Assembly: GCA_021776565.1 (NCBI GenBank)
Contig: JAJFFQ010000001.1
Location: 1 to 64,000 of the forward strand
Source: Robiginitomaculum sp.
GTDB lineage: Bacteria > Pseudomonadota > Alphaproteobacteria > Caulobacterales > Maricaulaceae
Direction: 5' to 3'
DNA: 64,000 nucleotides
Below are positions 63 through 19,522 of this stretch, piece after piece (within the stretch, counting starts at the first letter, position 1; each line of letters begins with the position of its first letter). The position numbers and the translations under genes were made by a program. Below the pieces are notes generated by a model that saw only the letters and a program-made list of their open reading frames with translations, was not told the DNA's origin and searched no databases.

Positions 63-914
63 TCATGCCGCTTTTTTCATTTCATCACTGCCGAAGTATG
101 CCTCGTCAGGGGTTTGTTTAGCAAGGGCCGTGTGGGGGCGATCGGTGTTGTAGAATGTGATCCACTTGCTGATTACCCGTTCGGCAACAAATCCGTCGGT
201 TAATTCATGCAGATAGACCGCCTCCTGTTTCAGGGACCGCCAGAGGCGCTCGATAAAGATGTTGTCGAGATAGCGTCCCCGCCCGTCCATGGAGATTTTC
301 ACTTCGGCTTCGCTCAAAGTGCTGATCCAGGCCGATCCGGTAAATTGACTGCCCTGATCGGTATTCATGATCTCTGGCGGGCCGTGTTTGGTAATGGCCT
401 CATCCAGTGCTTCCTTGCAGAAGCTCGCATCCATTGTGTTTGACAGTCGCCACGAGAGCACCTTACGCGTCGCCCAGTCCATGATGGCCACCAGATATAA
501 AAAGCCCCGTTTCACAGGGATATAACTGATGTCCGCGCACCAGACCTGATTGGGACGGGTGATCTGCATGTTTCTGAGAAGATACGGATAAATTCGGTTC
601 TCCGGATGCTTCTTGCTTGTGTTCGGGCGCTTGTAGATCGCCTCCAGCCCCATGATTTTCATCAGACGACGGATGCGGTGACGGCCTGCATAATAGCCTT
701 TTCTCGGCAAATAGGCCGCAATCTGGCGGCTGCCAAAGAACGGATATTGGGTGAATACCCGGTCGATCTGGTGCATCAGTTCCAATGTTTCAGGGCTAAA
801 CCCGACAGGGGTATAGTACAGCGAAGAGCGGCTGATCTTGAGGATTTTGCACTGACGAGACAGGCTGATACCCACTTGCTTGTTGACCATTTGTCGGCGC
901 GCCTTCGGGCTCAT
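63..914 (-). CDS. IS3-family transposase OrfB (DDE integrase core)
   Basis: This 283-residue protein is the catalytic ORF. Residues 1-60 resemble the HTH_21 region (SLSRQCKILKISRSSLYYTP). The rve integrase core follows, with the first Asp in VWCADISYIP, the second in MNTDQGSQFTG and the Glu in FIERLWRSLKQE, giving a complete DDE triad. The C-terminus has the usual YNTDRPHTAL and TPDEAY motifs. It is probably translated mainly as an OrfAB fusion by -1 frameshifting. It looks intact, so the element could still be active. Confidence 0.95.
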   Translation of the reverse strand: MSPKARRQMVNKQVGISLSRQCKILKISRSSLYYTPVGFSPETLELMHQIDRVFTQYPFFGSRQIAAYLPRKGYYAGRHRIRRLMKIMGLEAIYKRPNTSKKHPENRIYPYLLRNMQITRPNQVWCADISYIPVKRGFLYLVAIMDWATRKVLSWRLSNTMDASFCKEALDEAITKHGPPEIMNTDQGSQFTGSAWISTLSEAEVKISMDGRGRYLDNIFIERLWRSLKQEAVYLHELTDGFVAERVISKWITFYNTDRPHTALAKQTPDEAYFGSDEMKKAA

Positions 915-1189
915 CGCTTGAGCCCTCGCGCTAAAAAATCGTTCTCAACCGCCAGCCTCCCGATTTTGGCATGCAGGTCGTTGATCTCGGATTCGCTTGG
1001 GCCTTCTGGCTTGCCTGATCCTGAAAATACGCCAGACAAACCTTCCACAGCCTGCCTCTTCCAGGTGCTGACCTGGGTGGGATGTAACCGGTGCTTCGCT
1101 GCTATCTCATGGATCGTCCGGTCCCCACGTAGTGCTTCAAGCGCAACCTTGGCCTTAAACTGGTCCGAAAACTTCCGTCTCTTCGTCAT
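911..1189 (-). CDS. IS3-family transposase OrfA (HTH protein)
   Basis: This 92-residue protein is the DNA-binding first ORF of the insertion sequence. The N-terminal half reads as the IS3 OrfA helix-turn-helix (RRKFSDQFKAKVALEAL, then HEIAAKHRLHPTQVSTWKRQ). The C-terminal part (about 65-92) is a short heptad-like helix ending LAVENDFLARGLKR. In this family OrfA binds the terminal repeats and also supplies the N-terminus of the OrfAB transposase made by frameshifting. Its stop overlaps the orfB ATG by four bases, and the slippery site lies just before it. The reading frame is undamaged. Confidence 0.93.
   Translation of the reverse strand: MTKRRKFSDQFKAKVALEALRGDRTIHEIAAKHRLHPTQVSTWKRQAVEGLSGVFSGSGKPEGPSESEINDLHAKIGRLAVENDFLARGLKR
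932..938 (-). promoter_or_regulatory. Putative -1 ribosomal frameshift site in the IS3 element
   Basis: On the coding strand this is T TTT TTA, placed in the OrfA frame as GAT TTT TTA. That is the X XXY YYZ arrangement for simultaneous -1 slippage. After slippage the orfB frame is open through the next six codons to the orfB ATG, so an OrfAB fusion is possible. Only the sequence supports this; I did not model a stimulatory structure. Confidence 0.7.
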
Positions 1190-2999: not shown

Positions 3000-4271
3000 A
3001 TGGATCGTATACTTATCAATGGCGGCAATCCCTTAACGGGAACTGTACGCATAAACGGCGCCAAAAATTCGGCACTAAAACTTATGGCTGCCGCTTTGCT
3101 GACCGATGAGCCATTGACGCTAACCAATATGCCCGACCTTGCTGACACCCGCTTTATGGCGCATTTGCTGGCCCACCTGGGTGTTGCGGTAACGCGTAAA
3201 AACGGTACGCAGATGACATTGCATGCCAAAAAACTGGCCGAGCCGTTTGCGCCCTATGATCTGGTTCGTAAAATGCGTGCCACCTTTAATGTGCTGGGGC
3301 CATTACTGGCCCGGCACGGAACTGCCCGGGTGTCCCTGCCCGGTGGTTGTGCCATTGGTGCACGGCCCGTTGATCTACACCTCAAGGCGCTGGAGGCCAT
3401 GGGCGCGCAGATCGATCTGGTCGAGGGCTATGCGGTCGCACTAGCACCCACAGGTCTGCACGGCGCACACATCAGTTTTCCTTTTGTCTCGGTCGGGGCG
3501 ACCGAACATGCCATGCTGGCTGCTGTCCTCGCCCAGGGGGAAACGGTACTGGACAATGCAGCGCGAGAGCCGGAAATTGCCGATCTGGCCAACTGCCTGA
3601 ACGCCATGGGGACGCAGATTGAGGGCGCAGGCAGCGCCAGCATAAGCATTAAAGGTGTTGGCAGTCTGGGCGGCACCGAACACCGTGTTATGCCAGATCG
3701 CATAGAGGCCGGCACCTATGCGCTGGCGGTGGCGGCAACAGGCGGCAATGTGCTTATCGAGAACTGTGACCCGGCTCACCTGGGTGCGCTGTGGGATCGT
3801 ATGCGAGCCATTGGCGTTACCACCGAGCCACAAGGTGTGGATAGCGTTCGCATCATCCAGAACGGTGATCGTTGCAGTGCAGCCGATCTGGAAACCCAAG
3901 CCTATCCGGGTTTTCCTACTGATTTACAAGCGCAATTCATGGCCGTTATGTGCCGTGCCAATGGTGCGTCTATTATTCGCGAAACCATTTTTGAGAACCG
4001 CTTTATGCATGCGCCGGAGCTTTCCCGCCTTGGCGCAGACATAACCGTGCATGGGCGAGAGGCGGTGGTGCGCGGCGTGCCAGAACTACACGGCGCACCG
4101 GTTATGGCAACGGATTTACGCGCCAGCGTAAGCCTGGTTATTGCTGGCCTTGCTGCGCAAGGCCAGACAGAGGTTAACCGAATTTATCACCTTGATCGCG
4201 GCTTTGAAGGGCTGGAGCGCAAACTCGGTGCCCTGGGTGCGAACATAAAGCGTGTATCCGAGGCCGGTTAG
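3000..4271 (+). CDS. murA: UDP-N-acetylglucosamine 1-carboxyvinyltransferase
   Basis: MurA transfers enolpyruvate from PEP to UDP-GlcNAc, the first committed step of peptidoglycan synthesis in the cytoplasm. At 423 residues it is full length. The substrate-binding Lys22 lies in [11 protein letters not shown], and the loop [13 protein letters not shown] places the catalytic, fosfomycin-reactive Cys at 117, so the enzyme should be fosfomycin-sensitive at this position. Other family blocks are [34 protein letters not shown] and the C-terminal [14 protein letters not shown]. It follows the 39-aa gene and overlaps the end of the convergent cytochrome c gene. Confidence 0.97.
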
Positions 4272-4657
4272 TCGTCCAGACCATCGAGATATGCGATCAC
4301 GGCCAGCCGGTCAGCCTCACCCGTAACCTCATCGTTAAGACCCGGGAAAATCATTTTGGTTTTGGTCACCAGATCGCGCGGTTTGGTCAGATAAGTGTTT
4401 AATGTTGCTGCGTCCCAGACCGCACCGGTTTCACCAAAGGCGATCATGGATGCACTGTATTTATAACCCGTAAGCGTGCCAGGTGTCCGGCCAACCACAC
4501 CATAAAGGCTGGGGCCAACTTTCATCTTGCCGTCTTCAATGGAATGGCACACACGGCATTTTTTGAACACATCCTCACCATCAACAGCAAATGAAGGCAG
4601 TGCGCTTGTGGCCAACACCAGGGCAGCACCAATGGACATCATGATCGTTTTATTCAT
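4268..4657 (-). CDS. Class I cytochrome c (c2/c-550 type), exported
   Basis: This monohaem cytochrome c is synthesised as a precursor. The ATG at 4657 has GAGG eight bases upstream, and the next residues, [20 protein letters not shown], are a Sec signal peptide with cleavage probably after SFA. An upstream in-frame ATG at 4681 would spoil the signal. The haem site is CRVCH, followed by [14 protein letters not shown] and GYKYSASM, typical of mitochondrial/c2-type cytochromes. The Met of KMIFPGL is the likely sixth ligand. It is expected to carry electrons in the periplasm. It converges on murA with a four-base overlap. Confidence 0.93.
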
Positions 4658-4863
4658 TATAAATTCCTCTTGTTTGGACATATAAGGCTAGATTTCATGG
4701 ACTAATCAAACACAATACGATCCATAAACCTGTGTTGACCCGAAGATGGTCACAAAGCAAATCCCGATTATTCACATCTGCGTTATTATGCAATCATACC
4801 AACAGGATATTGAACCGCAGATGAATACAGCCGATTTTCCATAATAATTCACCTTATGCAAAC

Positions 4864-4926: not shown

Positions 4927-5685
4927 TTATTTGGCTGCGTATTCCTTTTGCAGCACATCGACATAGGCGGTCAATGCCGCCAGTTCTTCGGAATCCCAGG
5001 GTAGAGGATTGGCTTCCATAGGCTGTTGCATACAAATTTGAACCATGGTTTCTGCTGTAACCTTTTTCTGACGATAAAGGTCTTTACCCATGGCAACATA
5101 ATGCTTGTACGGATTTTTGAAGGTATCGTTATAGCCTTCAAGGTCTGTGTGGCAGCTATTGCAGCTTAACCCGTTGGAAGACAGAGATGCGTCGTCATAA
5201 AGTTCTTTGCCACGGGCAGCCAGCGTCGTGCTGCCGCCTTTGTATTTCTTGTCAAACATCGAACGTTTGACATCACCAGGGTTACCTTCGGCCTCGCCTT
5301 CGCCTTCTCCCTCAGCTTCGCCTTCTCCTTTGGCCTCACCCTCAGCTTCGCCTTCGGCTTCACCCTCGCCTTTAGCTTCCGCATGGCCTTTCATTTTATG
5401 AGCTTCGGCCTCGCCTTCGCCTTCTCCCTTGGCTTCACCCTCGCCTTTAGCTTCGGCATGGCCTTTCATTTTATGAGCTTCGGCTTTGGCTTCACCCTCA
5501 GCTTCACCTTTGGCTTCTTTCTTGGCTTCACTTTCAGCCTCACCAGCAGCTTGTTCATAGGCCGAAGGCGTAGCATTTTCTGCACTCACCGCCTGACTAA
5601 TGCCAATGCTGGCAATCATCAATGGTGTGGAATACAGCAATCCTTTGGCCAGTTTGCCGAGCAATATCTGACGTTTATCCTGCAT
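4927..5685 (-). CDS. Exported cytochrome c with a long Glu/Ala/Gly/Lys low-complexity tract
   Basis: The 252-residue precursor has three parts. Residues 1-35 are a signal peptide (LLYSTPLMIASIGISQAVSA). Residues 48-134 are a low-complexity tract of almost only Glu, Ala, Gly and Lys, with 29 Glu in 87 positions and no Asp. Residues 140-252 are a cytochrome c domain with one haem motif, CNSCH at 175-179, and a likely Met ligand in CMQQPMEANPLPW. The 17-residue block EAHKMKGHAEAKGEGEA occurs twice, at 69-85 and 94-110. The start at 5685 has AAGGGGA upstream; longer in-frame versions lack a signal peptide. It is divergent from the TTL-like ligase gene. The cytochrome assignment is firm; the role of the tract is unknown. 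Confidence 0.88.
   Translation of the reverse strand: MQDKRQILLGKLAKGLLYSTPLMIASIGISQAVSAENATPSAYEQAAGEAESEAKKEAKGEAEGEAKAEAHKMKGHAEAKGEGEAKGEGEGEAEAHKMKGHAEAKGEGEAEGEAEGEAKGEGEAEGEGEGEAEGNPGDVKRSMFDKKYKGGSTTLAARGKELYDDASLSSNGLSCNSCHTDLEGYNDTFKNPYKHYVAMGKDLYRQKKVTAETMVQICMQQPMEANPLPWDSEELAALTAYVDVLQKEYAAK
5284..5544 (-). repeat. Low-complexity coding repeat (Glu-rich tract)
   Basis: This encodes residues 48-134 of the cytochrome precursor. The DNA is built from GAR-GCN/GGN codon pairs. It contains two copies, 75 bases apart, of a unit encoding AHKMKGHAEAKGEGEA, which points to growth by tandem duplication. Length variation between strains is likely. Confidence 0.85.
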
Positions 5686-5964
5686 GGTCTTCCCCTTGGA
5701 ATTATGGCCGCCAGAGGCAGCATTTGAATAATGTAACCAACTCCAGGCACACGTGGCCCTTTGAAGCCCAAGACTAGGCATATGCTCAGGAAGGAGCAAG
5801 GCACAGACCCCGCCAATCTGGTAACATTTTCGCGAGGTGAGCAGCTTTGGCATATGAATATATGGATTTTCACAAGGATACGCGCTGCAAATGCAATCCT
5901 GCGCTTGACAGACCGCCTGCAAGCCATGCCAGTTTGACACAGCACACAAACACAAGGGTTGATA

Positions 5965-8382
5965 ATGACATCGACAAGCAAGAAACAGCTACGTTACTGG
6001 CTGGCTGGCAATCGCGAACCGGGACAGGACGTTTTTTTTGTTAAGGCGCTCGACAAGACCATATGGAAGCCCGGCAGCGCCGAGCACTGGGATACCTGTT
6101 GGTATACCGGCATGCCTGACCCAAAAGTCTTCGAGCAACTGGGCGATCATAAAACCATCAACCACATTCCCGGCAATAACGGCCTGACAATAAAAGACTA
6201 TCTGCATGAGACATTACGGGCGGCGCGGATGCGCCTGAGCGGCAAGGACAATATAGCGCGCATGGATTATTTCCCGCGCGTTTATGCCATGCCCGATGAT
6301 TATCATGAATTGCAACAATGTGCCGCCCGCAACCCAGACAAAAAATGGATATTAAAGCCCAAAAACTCATCGCGCGGGCGCGGCATAGAAGTGGTGCAGG
6401 ACATTGCCAATATCCCGCTTGATAACAAATGGATGGTGCAGGAATACATCGATAATCCGCATGTGATGAACGAGCGCAAATACGTGCTTCGCCTCTATGT
6501 TCTGGTGACTTCTGTGGAGCCATTAAGGGTCTATCTTCACCGTGAGGGCTTCGCCAAACTGGCCTCCGAACCCTATAATATCGAAGACCCGGACAACCCG
6601 TTTGCCCATCTGACCAATCCCGATATTAACGCCACCAATACAGACGCAGATGCACCGGTGGTGTTTGTCGGACTGTCTGATTATCGCCAATGGTTGCGCG
6701 ATCAGGGCCATGATCATGAGGCTTTATTTGCCAAAATCCGCGACCTGGTGACGCTAACGGTGATTGCCGTTCGCGAAAGAATGCGTAGGCGCGTTAATGC
6801 ACAAAAGGCCTCGGCACGCGGATGCTATGAGCTTCTGGGTATTGATTGCCTGGTGGACGAGCAACTGAAACCCTGGATTCTGGAATGTAATTTAAGCCCG
6901 TCGCTGGAAGTGTGTGCAGGGCCGGATGATGGCGGCGATACGGAAACCACGATCAAGCAAGGCATGGTGGCAGACATGGTATCGCTATTGGGGATCAACA
7001 CACACCCCGGCCATCAAAGCGACGATCCAGGCAAACTAAGCAAGGAAGAGCGCATTGCCCGGGATGCGGCGGATGAACTTTCCCGCGCCGGTGGTTTCGA
7101 GCGGTTATTTCCAGCCAAAGACAGTGTGGAGGATTATCTCAACTTTTTTCCTGTGCCGCGTTATGCCGATATGGTCAGCGCACGCCAGATCACCGGGGCC
7201 GCGCTAAAACCGGTGCGGTTGGTACCAAATCGAACCACTGAAATTGTATCCGAAGACGAACTGGCGCTTTATTTTGAGAAAAACGGCACGCTATACACAC
7301 CCAATCCGGTTTCGGGATGGATATGGCTAAAAATCACCGGCGGGGCAGACCCCGAAGAGATCGCTGCTGAACTTATCGCCTCGCACGAAGCTGCCCATGG
7401 GACGCCCGGCGAGGGTGAACAATGGATGATCCGCGAAAATGTCTGGGATGTGCTGTCCAACTGGGCACAACTTGGGCTTTTGCGCCGCGAAGGTGAAAAT
7501 GAACAACCCATTGAACAACAATCCACAAAATCGTTCACCAGCATCAAACCGGATACCTTGTTGGTGGGAGAGCGCGTCATTGCCCTTGACTATGGCTGTC
7601 CGGCGGTTGCGGCTCGACTTGGCGAGATGTTTGCACCGCTCAAAACAAATAAAAAGCCCGAACTGACCATAGCCATACAGCGTGCGCCTGTGGGGTATGC
7701 CGTGGCGCTTGGCTCACAGCTTATCACCACCGGGCTTGGCCTGGATAATCTTGCCCAGATCGTTAGCCGCGCCCTTTTTGAGCAAGCCCCCGCCAACGAG
7801 CACGAAATTGCAATTGCCGGCTCTCTGGTTTTACTTGGCAATAACGAGGCGATATTGTTTGTCGCCGGGCGCGAAAGCCAATGGGAAGATGCCTTGCCAT
7901 TGCAGTTTTCCACCTCAATCGGCCAAGGTATTGCGGGCGGGGCCAGGCTGGATATGAATATGCACAAAACCGCAATACCCATCGGCCTGCCCCTGCGTAT
8001 CAATGAAGACGACATCAACACGATCGAAGAAACCCTGGATGCGACACTGCCCTCTTATATGCAGAATTGGCTCTCAGGGGGGCAAGGGCGGCTGTTGGCT
8101 TTTGATTGTAGCGCCAATGGTCAACCCGTAACCTTACGAGCGATCATCATCCCGGAACGAAGTGAGCAAGGAAAAATGGCACTGAACAAGGCCAGCGTCC
8201 ACCGGGCACTTGATGCGATTTTGGTCTCTGCGGCGGGCGAGCAAGGCGCAAGCCTGGTTGGTGCACAAGTCAGCGCGTTGAATGACTGGCTGGATGGGTG
8301 CGACCTCTATACATTTGGCTTTGCCGATGCCAATGAGGGGGCTGAAAAACTCGCCGGGGCGCTGGGTATAAACCAGGACTAG
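5965..8382 (+). CDS. TTL-like ATP-grasp ligase fused to PqqD-like and HprK-like domains
   Basis: This 805-residue protein has three modules. Residues 95-345 match the tubulin-tyrosine-ligase/polyglutamylase ATP-grasp family: WILKPKNSSRGRGIEVV (nucleotide-binding Lys), MVQEYIDNP, RKYVLRLYVLVTS, AHLTNPDIN, ELLGIDCLVDEQ and WILECNLSPSLE (metal ligands Asp295, Glu307, Asn309). Residues 416-507 resemble PqqD peptide-binding domains (ELALYFEKNGTLYTPNPVSGW, then DPEEIAAELI). Residues 531-805 resemble HprK-like domains of peptide-modification clusters, but the P-loop position reads VAGRESQWEDA without GK[ST]. Family knowledge predicts ATP-dependent addition of an amino acid to a protein carboxylate. 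The ATG at 5965 is chosen because AAGGG lies six bases upstream; the in-frame TTG at 5959 is too close. It is divergent from the Glu-rich cytochrome gene, a plausible substrate. Confidence 0.85.
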   Translation: MTSTSKKQLRYWLAGNREPGQDVFFVKALDKTIWKPGSAEHWDTCWYTGMPDPKVFEQLGDHKTINHIPGNNGLTIKDYLHETLRAARMRLSGKDNIARMDYFPRVYAMPDDYHELQQCAARNPDKKWILKPKNSSRGRGIEVVQDIANIPLDNKWMVQEYIDNPHVMNERKYVLRLYVLVTSVEPLRVYLHREGFAKLASEPYNIEDPDNPFAHLTNPDINATNTDADAPVVFVGLSDYRQWLRDQGHDHEALFAKIRDLVTLTVIAVRERMRRRVNAQKASARGCYELLGIDCLVDEQLKPWILECNLSPSLEVCAGPDDGGDTETTIKQGMVADMVSLLGINTHPGHQSDDPGKLSKEERIARDAADELSRAGGFERLFPAKDSVEDYLNFFPVPRYADMVSARQITGAALKPVRLVPNRTTEIVSEDELALYFEKNGTLYTPNPVSGWIWLKITGGADPEEIAAELIASHEAAHGTPGEGEQWMIRENVWDVLSNWAQLGLLRREGENEQPIEQQSTKSFTSIKPDTLLVGERVIALDYGCPAVAARLGEMFAPLKTNKKPELTIAIQRAPVGYAVALGSQLITTGLGLDNLAQIVSRALFEQAPANEHEIAIAGSLVLLGNNEAILFVAGRESQWEDALPLQFSTSIGQGIAGGARLDMNMHKTAIPIGLPLRINEDDINTIEETLDATLPSYMQNWLSGGQGRLLAFDCSANGQPVTLRAIIIPERSEQGKMALNKASVHRALDAILVSAAGEQGASLVGAQVSALNDWLDGCDLYTFGFADANEGAEKLAGALGINQD

Positions 8383-9664: not shown

Positions 9665-9793
9665 TGAAACACGAAAACCCATAGTTCTGGTTGTTGATAT
9701 TTTCCATTTGAAAAGGCAAGAACCCTCGTAATTTTTACCACGTTTCTGTATAGTTAAGTGATAACCATATTCATTCTTGGGAGCACCAACGCC

Positions 9794-10525
9794 ATGGAAA
9801 AGCAAAATTATAAACCCTATCAGGTTTGGGATGTGCCAGTCCGGTTATTCCACTGGGTGAATTTTGCATGTGTGCTCAGTATGATCGCCATTGGCACCGT
9901 TATCCTGTGCGCCAAATCACTGGGCCTGACGACTGACGGAAAAATCCTGATTAAGACAGTTCATGTTCTTGTCGGCTATATTTTTGTTACCAATCTGGGT
10001 ATTCGTCTGCTCTGGGCTTTTGTCGGTAACCGCTTTGCGCGCTGGAACAGTTTTTTACCTATTGGCAAAGATTATTACGGCAAATTAAAAGCGTATCTGG
10101 CAACCGGAAAAGCCGACAAACCACAATACTATCTTGGCCATAACCCCATGGGGCGCCTGGCGGTTAGTGCGCTGTTTGCAGCACTTCTGACCATGGCAAT
10201 TACCGGGTTAGTGCTGGCCGGAACTGATATTTATTTTCCTCCCTTTGGCGCAATGATACAGGAATGGGTGGCGGCTGCCGGGGTAAATCCGGCGGACATT
10301 GCCCCTTACGTCAAAGACAATGTTGATGCCGAGGCTTTCAAGGAAATGCGGGAATTTCGTAAACCCTTTATCACAACACATTACTGGGCATTTTTTATTG
10401 TTCTGGGGTTGATACTCCTGCACATCGGGGCGGTGGTCTATACCGAGATCAAAGCCGGTGGCGGTATTGTTTCAGCCATGTTTACCGGCAAAAAAGTTCT
10501 TCCATCCGAACCCGAAGATCAATAA
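9794..10525 (+). CDS. Diheme b-type cytochrome (cytochrome b561 family)
   Basis: This 243-residue inner-membrane protein is of the type that pairs with c-type cytochromes. The N-terminus YQVWDVPVRLFHWVNF is the family signature with the first haem His. TVHVLVGYIFV, LGIRLLWAFVG and HYWAFFIVLGLILLHIGAVV carry further candidate ligands and segments. It probably moves electrons between the quinone pool and a periplasmic cytochrome c such as the two encoded at 4268-5685. The ATG at 9794 has GGGAGC nine bases upstream; an upstream in-frame GTG at 9758 is less likely. Confidence 0.9.
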   Translation: MEKQNYKPYQVWDVPVRLFHWVNFACVLSMIAIGTVILCAKSLGLTTDGKILIKTVHVLVGYIFVTNLGIRLLWAFVGNRFARWNSFLPIGKDYYGKLKAYLATGKADKPQYYLGHNPMGRLAVSALFAALLTMAITGLVLAGTDIYFPPFGAMIQEWVAAAGVNPADIAPYVKDNVDAEAFKEMREFRKPFITTHYWAFFIVLGLILLHIGAVVYTEIKAGGGIVSAMFTGKKVLPSEPEDQ

Positions 10526-18667: not shown

Positions 18668-19522
18668 TTACAATGGTTTATCAGACCAATGGGTTTTGCA
18701 GTCGTCAAAATATGTTTGCAGACAATTTGTTATGAGAGATACCCCATCTTTTCCAACAAATGGCCGCCTTGGCCATGTCATTTCACTATCGCATTTGGGA
18801 AACACACGTGTAGATTCCCAAAAGGGTATAATATTTATTTTTTCTTCGATTTCAAAGTCGCATACCCGAGCTGCATTTATGTGAATAAGCACAGCACCCA
18901 TAATAAATGTTAATGTCTGCACATTCTTACTAACCCCATCAAGCTGAGGGTTTGGACCATCAGGGCTAAACGCTATGGTATGAGAATGCCTAATATACCA
19001 AATCTTAGATTCTGTGACATGATTACCAACATAAATTTTATAGTATTCGGGGATAATATTTTGGTTCTTTAATGCTCTACGATCATTTTGCGGTGTTAAA
19101 TTACTATTAGGTTTGTCATTTTCAGCAACCATACACTTCATCGCAATCCACCGGCACAAAACGCCGATATTTTTTTTGGAATGAGTGACGGATTCACCTT
19201 TAATTAGAGGCGTTAAAATAGATGAAACCTCCTTTTCGAGAAGACTCATCCATCCGTTGTTACAGTTTCTGCAAACCGCGCGAATTTGTATGCTTTTCAC
19301 TCCACCCGGTCGTTTTGAAAAGCCTTTTGTAACTACGCCAGTGCTTGGGTGAAAATTATGTTGTAAACGTTCATGAGTACTTAGAGCAGTGATGCTAGGT
19401 AATAGGTCATGCATCCATTTTGGCCAGAAGTGTTCCTTGCTATTTGCAGGGTTCTCACAAAATATGCACTTTCTACTTTTGATGTATTTTTCCTCTGCTT
19501 TGAACACGTGTATGCAGCCCAA
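18668..19522 (-). CDS. HNH-like zinc-motif protein, horizontally acquired
   Basis: This 284-residue protein has a split metal motif: CIFC with a following EHFWPKWM (Cys19, Cys22, Glu30-His31), then AVCRNCNNGWMSLLE (Cys84, Cys87, Asn88). The CxxC...EH...CxxCN pattern is that of HNH-type nuclease folds. The rest (residues 100-284) is unassigned. The gene is visibly AT-richer than its neighbours, consistent with transfer. The start is uncertain: a TTG gives the longest form, a GTG at 19507 is an alternative. It lies 12 bases downstream of an orphan HigA-type regulator on the same strand. The nuclease call is tentative. Confidence 0.6.
   Translation of the reverse strand: MGCIHVFKAEEKYIKSRKCIFCENPANSKEHFWPKWMHDLLPSITALSTHERLQHNFHPSTGVVTKGFSKRPGGVKSIQIRAVCRNCNNGWMSLLEKEVSSILTPLIKGESVTHSKKNIGVLCRWIAMKCMVAENDKPNSNLTPQNDRRALKNQNIIPEYYKIYVGNHVTESKIWYIRHSHTIAFSPDGPNPQLDGVSKNVQTLTFIMGAVLIHINAARVCDFEIEEKINIIPFWESTRVFPKCDSEMTWPRRPFVGKDGVSLITNCLQTYFDDCKTHWSDKPL

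Follow-up and report, generated by a model that had tools for sequence, protein, structure and literature searches.

In a 64,000-nucleotide stretch of Robiginitomaculum sp. DNA (hereafter the window; contig JAJFFQ010000001.1), a gene at 5965–8382 encodes an enzyme of 805 residues that is probably the maturase of a protein-glutamylation system resembling those of ribosomally synthesized and post-translationally modified peptides (RiPPs), acting on secreted peptides and cytochromes. The enzyme joins a ligase domain of the tubulin tyrosine ligase (TTL) and TTL-like (TTLL) type, a PqqD-like domain predicted to be a RiPP recognition element (RRE) and a domain related to HPr kinase (HprK). This three-domain fusion had been claimed in an earlier reading of the sequence alone, and Pfam, profile and fold searches bear it out. 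Divergent from the enzyme gene, and overlooked in that reading, is a gene for a c-type cytochrome with a leader and a Glu-rich tail, which we propose as the substrate. The proposal is based on the domain architecture, the kept catalytic residues, the physical linkage of enzyme and partner, a leader shared among partners, co-occurrence across genomes and the exchange of one kind of cytochrome tail for another. The features of this pair in the window, with the basis for each in parentheses, are as follows.

5965–8382, plus strand: TTL–RRE–HprK-like modifying enzyme, 805 residues (open reading frame, Pfam matches, alignment, structure model)
6058–7131, plus strand: TTLL6/7-type ligase domain with helical extension, approximately residues 32–389 (TTLL6 profile and fold matches, residue counts)
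6148–6912, plus strand: Pfam TTL part of the ligase domain, residues 62–316 (PF03133)
7219–7485, plus strand: predicted PqqD/RRE leader-binding domain, approximately residues 419–507 (Pfam, profile and fold matches)
7552–8361, plus strand: HprK-related domain without a P-loop, approximately residues 530–799 (motif count, fold match, hhalign)
4927–5685, minus strand: proposed substrate, an exported c-type cytochrome of 252 residues from the ATG at 5685, divergent from the enzyme (leader detector, cytochrome match)
5578–5685, minus strand: leader or signal peptide MQDKRQILLGKLAKGLLYSTPLMIASIGISQAVSA with the shared motif (signal peptide judged by eye)
5290–5544, minus strand: 85-residue tail with 28 E, 19 G, 19 A and 12 K, the proposed modification site (composition)
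4930–5280, minus strand: SoxA/TsdA-like cytochrome c domain with one CxxCH (domain matches)
5686–5964, no strand: divergent intergenic region of 279 bp (coordinates)

Among the TTL-family structures compared, the ligase domain is, as judged by sequence, closest to the glutamylases. The Pfam TTL model matches the window protein with an expectation value (E) of 1.4e-60 (205.5 bits against a cut-off of 20.1), and TTLL6 is its top-scoring solved structure by sequence. We aligned 53 family members, namely the window protein and 52 of 58 enzyme loci that a scan of the genome_contigs collection had returned with a first alignment (L049, L050, L057, L065, L067 and L074 were excluded as partial or broken). 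The resulting profile matches TTLL6 at E = 4.9e-67 (engineered chain 6vzq) and 4.1e-65 (wild-type chain 6vzt) over positions 32–389, including the helical extension past the catalytic core. It also matches TTLL7 (1.5e-57) and TTLL11 (4e-32), and is much weaker for TTL itself (2e-17) and for chain 5vlq (6.4e-19), which we take to be a TTLL3-type glycylase. The best fold match of an AlphaFold model of the whole 805-residue protein (mean predicted local distance difference test (pLDDT) 90, predicted template modelling score 0.86) is again TTLL6 (E = 2.9e-29). Residues K131, R176, K198, N218, D294, E307 and N309 are kept in all 53 homologues; going by roles in the TTL family, these are presumably the metal and phosphate ligands of the ATP-grasp.

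One further position bears on the chemistry. R137 of the window protein aligns with Q180 of TTLL6; 47 of the 53 homologues have R at this position and the other 6 have K, and the engineered TTLL6 chain 6vzq has R in place of the wild-type Q. Passages of PMC7970040 and PMC12366701 present Q180 as a main determinant of elongation versus initiation, and in PMC7970040 a passage describes Arg at this site as favouring gamma-linked glutamylation. Taken with the overall similarity, this one residue points to an initiating glutamylase that would link to side chains. Position 310, which is L in 53 of 53 homologues and corresponds to H362 in TTLL6, was not used as evidence; we dropped it as a mark of an initiator because the relevant passage of PMC7970040 is ambiguous on H362.

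The segment that follows is predicted to bind a leader. Its Pfam PqqD match in the window protein (residues 435–506; E = 1.1e-4, 22.8 bits) is under the cut-off of 23.4; matches at E ≤ 0.1 occur in 47 of the 53 homologues (best 1.8e-10), and the lasso-peptide PqqD model matches 27 of them. The family profile matches the solved lasso-peptide RRE TbiB1 at E = 3e-4 over profile positions 419–499, and when the C-terminal 402 residues are modelled on their own (pLDDT 92), the model matches five chains of TbiB1 crystallized with its leader peptide, at target TM-scores (template modelling scores) of 0.78–0.88. By profile and model, then, the predicted maturase has the RRE domain expected of a RiPP system. 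The sequence-only reading had said that it would fail if this segment did not fold like PqqD or if homologues lacked the ATP-grasp metal ligands; the models fold there as an RRE, and D294, E307 and N309 persist in 53 of 53 homologues.

The same reading described a self-contained, tail-modifying ligase that finds its substrate through the PqqD-like part. The ligase and its mode of recognition stand as a prediction; self-containment is not supported, as the enzyme probably acts on a second protein, a leader-bearing partner that is usually encoded next to it and whose leader is conserved. In the window this partner is the divergent cytochrome (SoxA-TsdA cytochrome c match, E = 3.3e-9), with the leader pattern DKRxxLLxKLxKGLLYSTP. 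The leader occurs just once in its own genome (next match E = 0.2), in which the 805-residue enzyme is also the sole TTL-domain match. Over 59 loci (the 58 scanned plus the window), a detector for a leader with a Glu-rich stretch found a partner in 55, never farther than 5 kb from the enzyme, with a distance of up to 350 bp in 46 loci and up to 1.5 kb in 53. In these 55 loci the enzyme has the linked candidate precursor, with a conserved leader and a repetitive core, that is expected of a RiPP system. A simple composition filter returned a Glu-rich open reading frame in 53 of the 58 fetched stretches, a few of them more than 4 kb off and seemingly unrelated.

The partners are small peptides in 39 loci and tailed cytochromes in 29, some loci having both, and the same leader, which looks like a signal peptide, is common to the two kinds. 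Its consensus over 65 distinct leader windows is [K/R]xxLLxxL[S/A][R/K]GLxYxxPL. The residue at −7, which the pattern of the detector does not impose, is R or K in 62 of the 65 (misreads counted); three of the windows were misread (L018 and L035 by a wrong start codon, and one spurious open reading frame in L032). A lipobox-like leader is present in 10 of the 55 loci. Pooled peptide cores (1,746 residues) consist of E (40.5%), G (24.7%), A (23.5%), K (5.2%), S (1.5%) and T (0.5%). In Halomonas-type carriers (L100, L101 and L102), some leader-bearing Glu-rich partners are on other contigs or 15–30 kb away, and recognition would therefore work in trans. Partners of the Parvularculaceae type (L056, L064, L068 and L073) resemble lipoproteins, and their repeats are of the EEAAEEA type instead of the EG type.

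Co-occurrence of enzyme and partner was counted in the 124 genomes of one genus, that of G200 (Marinobacter sp. ATCH36, the genome of locus L035). The enzyme is present in 27 of these genomes, and the leader (E ≤ 1e-4) is in exactly the same 27 and in none of the 97 others; in 26 of the 27 carriers the leader match is a small peptide. Whole-genome searches of fifteen chosen carriers gave matches in all fifteen (best E from 3.1e-38 to 2.6e-4). In the draw of 200 genomes from the order of the window that was also searched for the enzyme, the cytochrome domain occurs in three, all of them enzyme carriers as judged by the genome handles listed. Within the L035 genus it occurs in 60 of 124 genomes, 33 of them enzyme-free. 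All 27 carriers have a Glu-rich tail on the orthologous cytochrome (four via a looser pattern); of the 33 enzyme-free genomes we read 20, and in 18 of these the tail is instead Cys-rich, with NPCAAKNPCA-type repeats and a leader that differs by eye. One non-carrier, G260 (L129:7300-8900), retains a decayed Glu-tail cytochrome with an in-frame stop and CxxGH for CxxCH. Both tail versions can adjoin the same sigma-factor, flavoprotein and radical-SAM genes. The pairing of enzyme and partner is strongly supported by these observations, and the simplest reading of the sequences is that the Glu-rich tail and the enzyme function together.

Several side observations concern these genomes. Enzyme-free loci with Cys-rich-tailed SoxA/TsdA-like cytochromes include L106–L120 and L123–L125. 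Near the cytochrome, with and without the enzyme (L126–L129 and L037), are a radical SAM gene and a MerA-like flavoprotein gene with a VTT domain, and a pair of genes for an ECF-type sigma factor and a zinc-finger anti-sigma factor is likewise found in loci of both kinds. The radical SAM gene was considered as a maturase of the Cys-rich tails, which is unproven, given its presence in loci with and without the enzyme. In two carriers (G265:C10 and G282:C55), the enzyme gene is apparently split into two matches by a frame break or sequencing error, and the leader peptide and tailed cytochrome are nevertheless present.

From these results we infer how the leader is bound, which ligation follows, which amino acid is added and what the HprK-like part and the tail do. 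The RRE domain would bind the conserved leader of the partner, [K/R]xxLLxxL[S/A][R/K]GLxYxxP, which doubles as a signal peptide; the partner would be a small secreted peptide or lipoprotein, or a c-type cytochrome. The TTLL-type ATP-grasp would use ATP to activate a Glu carboxylate within the Glu/Gly/Ala repeats, and an amino acid, most likely glutamate and less likely glycine, would be ligated to the Glu side chain, as in eukaryotic initiating glutamylases. The HprK-like domain may hold or position the substrate. The exported product would be a periplasmic peptide or cytochrome with a hyper-anionic tail.

A number of points weigh against this proposal. No partner was found in four of the 59 loci, of which L029 and L057 have little flanking sequence on one side, and L046 and L047 (Pararhodobacter) have full flanks; in two Halomonas-type loci (L036 and L070) the nearest partner is 4.9 kb from the enzyme. 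The leader detector was designed after the first loci had been seen, and part of the motif (L, S/A-R/K and P) is set by its own pattern. It gave two hits in 396,636 bases of control sequence, neither of which resembles a leader by eye, and a further false hit within L032; plain Glu-rich open reading frames numbered three in the own-genome part of the control. The co-occurrence counts are not independent by descent. In carrier G257 the leader match is in the tailed cytochrome gene, with no small peptide at E ≤ 1e-4, and in non-carrier G286 a Glu tail occurs at the edge of a contig, beyond which the enzyme could lie. The Glu-rich tail could be required for some other reason, and the identity of the added amino acid is beyond the reach of sequence.

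We weighed four alternatives, which are not all mutually exclusive. The one that survives best, though we consider it unlikely, retains the same enzyme–substrate pair and has glycine or another amino acid ligated, or has Glu joined by isopeptide cross-links to Lys residues or the amino terminus of the tail, as in graspetides. Glycylases are among the TTLL relatives described in passages of PMC12340829, the pooled cores are 25% G and 5% K, and 12 of the 85 residues in the window tail are K. However, the family profile is far nearer to the glutamylases than to chain 5vlq, and several cores (for example, L031) are without any K, S or T.

Somewhat less likely again is ligation to the carboxy terminus of the peptide, a chain extension like that of RimK on S6 or of TTLL11, rather than to side chains. 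Many small partners do end within a Glu-rich stretch, with EAEG as the commonest ending, and passages of PMC12366701 describe TTLL11 and TTLL6 as able to extend primary chains. In 29 of the 55 partner-bearing loci, the window included, a cytochrome domain lies downstream of the tail in at least one partner, and the tail there is therefore internal, which argues against a carboxy-terminal substrate.

It is improbable that the Glu-rich proteins are linked neighbours rather than substrates, with the enzyme acting on some other target such as a small molecule or cell-wall peptide. The tail could indeed be a plain acidic linker; set against this are the leader common to peptides and cytochromes and the predicted RRE within the enzyme itself, the co-occurrence (27/27 versus 0/97), the exchange of tails that tracks the presence of the enzyme, and the partners that are far off or on other contigs in some carriers.

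The C-terminal part of the enzyme was read from sequence as HprK-like. Homology stood, to HprK-related kinase A: the family aligned by hhalign to an alignment of six such kinases with 96.6% probability (E = 5.5e-10, 258 columns). Family searches with the 53 homologues gave no match to an HprK model, and NCBIfam has no model above its cut-off for the enzyme or for the precursors that we tried. A fold search with the C-terminal model returned phosphoenolpyruvate (PEP) carboxykinases as the commonest matches (top E = 1.8e-4, TM-score of approximately 0.4); PEP carboxykinase and HprK share a fold. The P-loop is missing: a Walker A motif, GxxxxGK[ST], occurs after residue 520 in 0 of 53 homologues. 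The domain is thus homologous to these kinases, and nucleotide binding of the usual kind is not expected of it; having lost the P-loop, it is not expected to be an ordinary kinase. A P-loop replacement by invariant W640–D642, suggested by eight sequences, failed in the set of 53 (W in 28, D in 43). Least probable by far, and rejected, is an active kinase that phosphorylates the peptide ahead of ligation: homology to HprK-related kinase A speaks for it, and the missing Walker A, together with the alignment of the kinases' GKST stretch opposite W-EDAL of the enzyme family, speaks against it.

The closest known parallels to the proposed glutamylation are eukaryotic. The introduction of PMC13052805 describes nearly 400 residues of Glu-Gly repeats in retinal RPGR, likens them to tubulin tails, and reports that TTLL5 glutamylates them after docking on a separate basic domain. 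The TTLL4, TTLL5, TTLL6 and TTLL7 glutamylases share with our enzyme the TTL ATP-grasp, the helical extension and the catalytic residues, and TTLL5–RPGR, the nearest case, also shares the logic of a Glu-Gly repeat substrate and docking through a separate domain. Docking there is by a CID helical bundle, whereas the bacterial enzyme would dock by its PqqD/RRE domain on a leader; here, moreover, the proposed substrate is exported and an HprK-like domain without a P-loop is added.

Pathways with discrete or fused RREs (TbiB1 and PqqD) have in common with this system the RRE fold and sequence, a leader with a low-complexity core, and gene linkage. They differ in that here the maturase is a TTL-type ligase, the leader is also a signal peptide, and the core can sit inside a folded cytochrome. 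No dedicated protease or exporter was recognized among the recurrent neighbours of the enzyme, which also sets it apart from those pathways. In ten loci a C92-type permuted papain-like peptidase is encoded approximately 3–6 kb from the enzyme (for example, L039:13387-14193), and a gene of this type is also found in one enzyme-free locus. A maleylpyruvate-isomerase-like (MDMPI_N) protein is encoded near the enzyme in 16 gammaproteobacterial loci (for example, L032:9649-10353). HPr-rel-A systems pair an HprK-related kinase A with a PqqD-family chaperone; the same two kinds of domain are here fused to a TTL ligase, and the P-loop is missing.

Graspetide macrocyclases use Glu carboxylates, and graspetide cores pair Ser, Thr or Lys acceptors with Asp or Glu. 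An ATP-grasp ligase acting on a precursor peptide is common to both systems (abstract of PMC8939145), but our enzyme is in a different ATP-grasp family (TTL) and Ser, Thr and Lys are scarce in the pooled cores. On that composition we rejected graspetide membership for the family as a whole, although the window tail itself has 12 K. To our knowledge, RimK has neither an RRE nor a leader, and SidJ has no TTL domain. RimK shares bacterial ATP-grasp glutamylation of a protein, S6, the C-terminus of which it extends (passages of PMC4431377). Bacterial protein polyglutamylation is already known from SidJ, through a pseudokinase fold that is unrelated to our enzyme in fold and setting. No description of a bacterial TTL or TTL–RRE system is among the literature matches listed, in which subscription papers are mostly outside coverage, and an earlier mention is possible; the main text of a 2025 RRE survey contains neither 'tubulin' nor 'TTL'.

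In the order of the window, 7 of 200 genomes (own genome counted), belonging to 3 of 41 genera, have a homologue, each nearly full-length. Across the phylum few genomes match PF03133 at E ≤ 1e-10, namely 4 of 398 (own counted), one of the four much weaker. The scanned loci come from Robiginitomaculum, Parvularculaceae/Marinicaulis, Marinobacter, Halomonas-type genera, Aquisalimonas, Ectothiorhodospiraceae, Pararhodobacter, Arenicella and others, a sample biased toward close members by the two peptide patterns used in the scan. We rejected virus-borne and plasmid-borne elements as candidates, as a viral scan with only close relatives in reach and a tblastn search against plasmids at E ≤ 1e-10 gave no match.

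Around the pair in the window, the 279-bp intergenic region yields a single promoter-like match, where 0.4 would be expected; it is on the minus strand. Nearby are a second cytochrome c (4268–4681, minus strand) and a cytochrome b561 (9758–10525, plus strand); in L010 a gene that is b561-like by eye directly follows the enzyme. Farther away, two overlapping open reading frames at the left end (63–1189, minus strand) resemble, by eye, an IS3-type transposase, and an HNH-like protein, also by eye, is encoded amid housekeeping genes at 18668–19522 (minus strand).

If the proposal is true, it would describe a tubulin-tail-like modification system in bacteria and a new RiPP class based on a TTL ligase, and would give the Glu-rich tails of bacterial cytochromes a function. 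A bolder version, which we offer tentatively, is a bacterial 'tail code', in which RRE-docked, TTLL-type glutamylation may furnish exported peptides and c-type cytochromes with brushes of branched polyglutamate. Such a brush might be a module for handling metal or charge; in genomes with the enzyme gene it would take the place of the Cys-rich tail on the orthologous cytochrome, and one electron carrier would therefore alternate between two kinds of tail; such a role is suggested by the exchange with Cys-rich tails and the redox setting alone. TTLL enzymes and Glu-Gly tails have mostly been studied within the cytoskeletal and ciliary toolkit of eukaryotes. With a leader and a predicted RRE as a pair, the substrate can be put to a direct test, a rare situation for an orphan ligase, and enzyme, docking domain and substrate, compactly side by side, would provide a tractable model for the chemistry of TTLL initiation.

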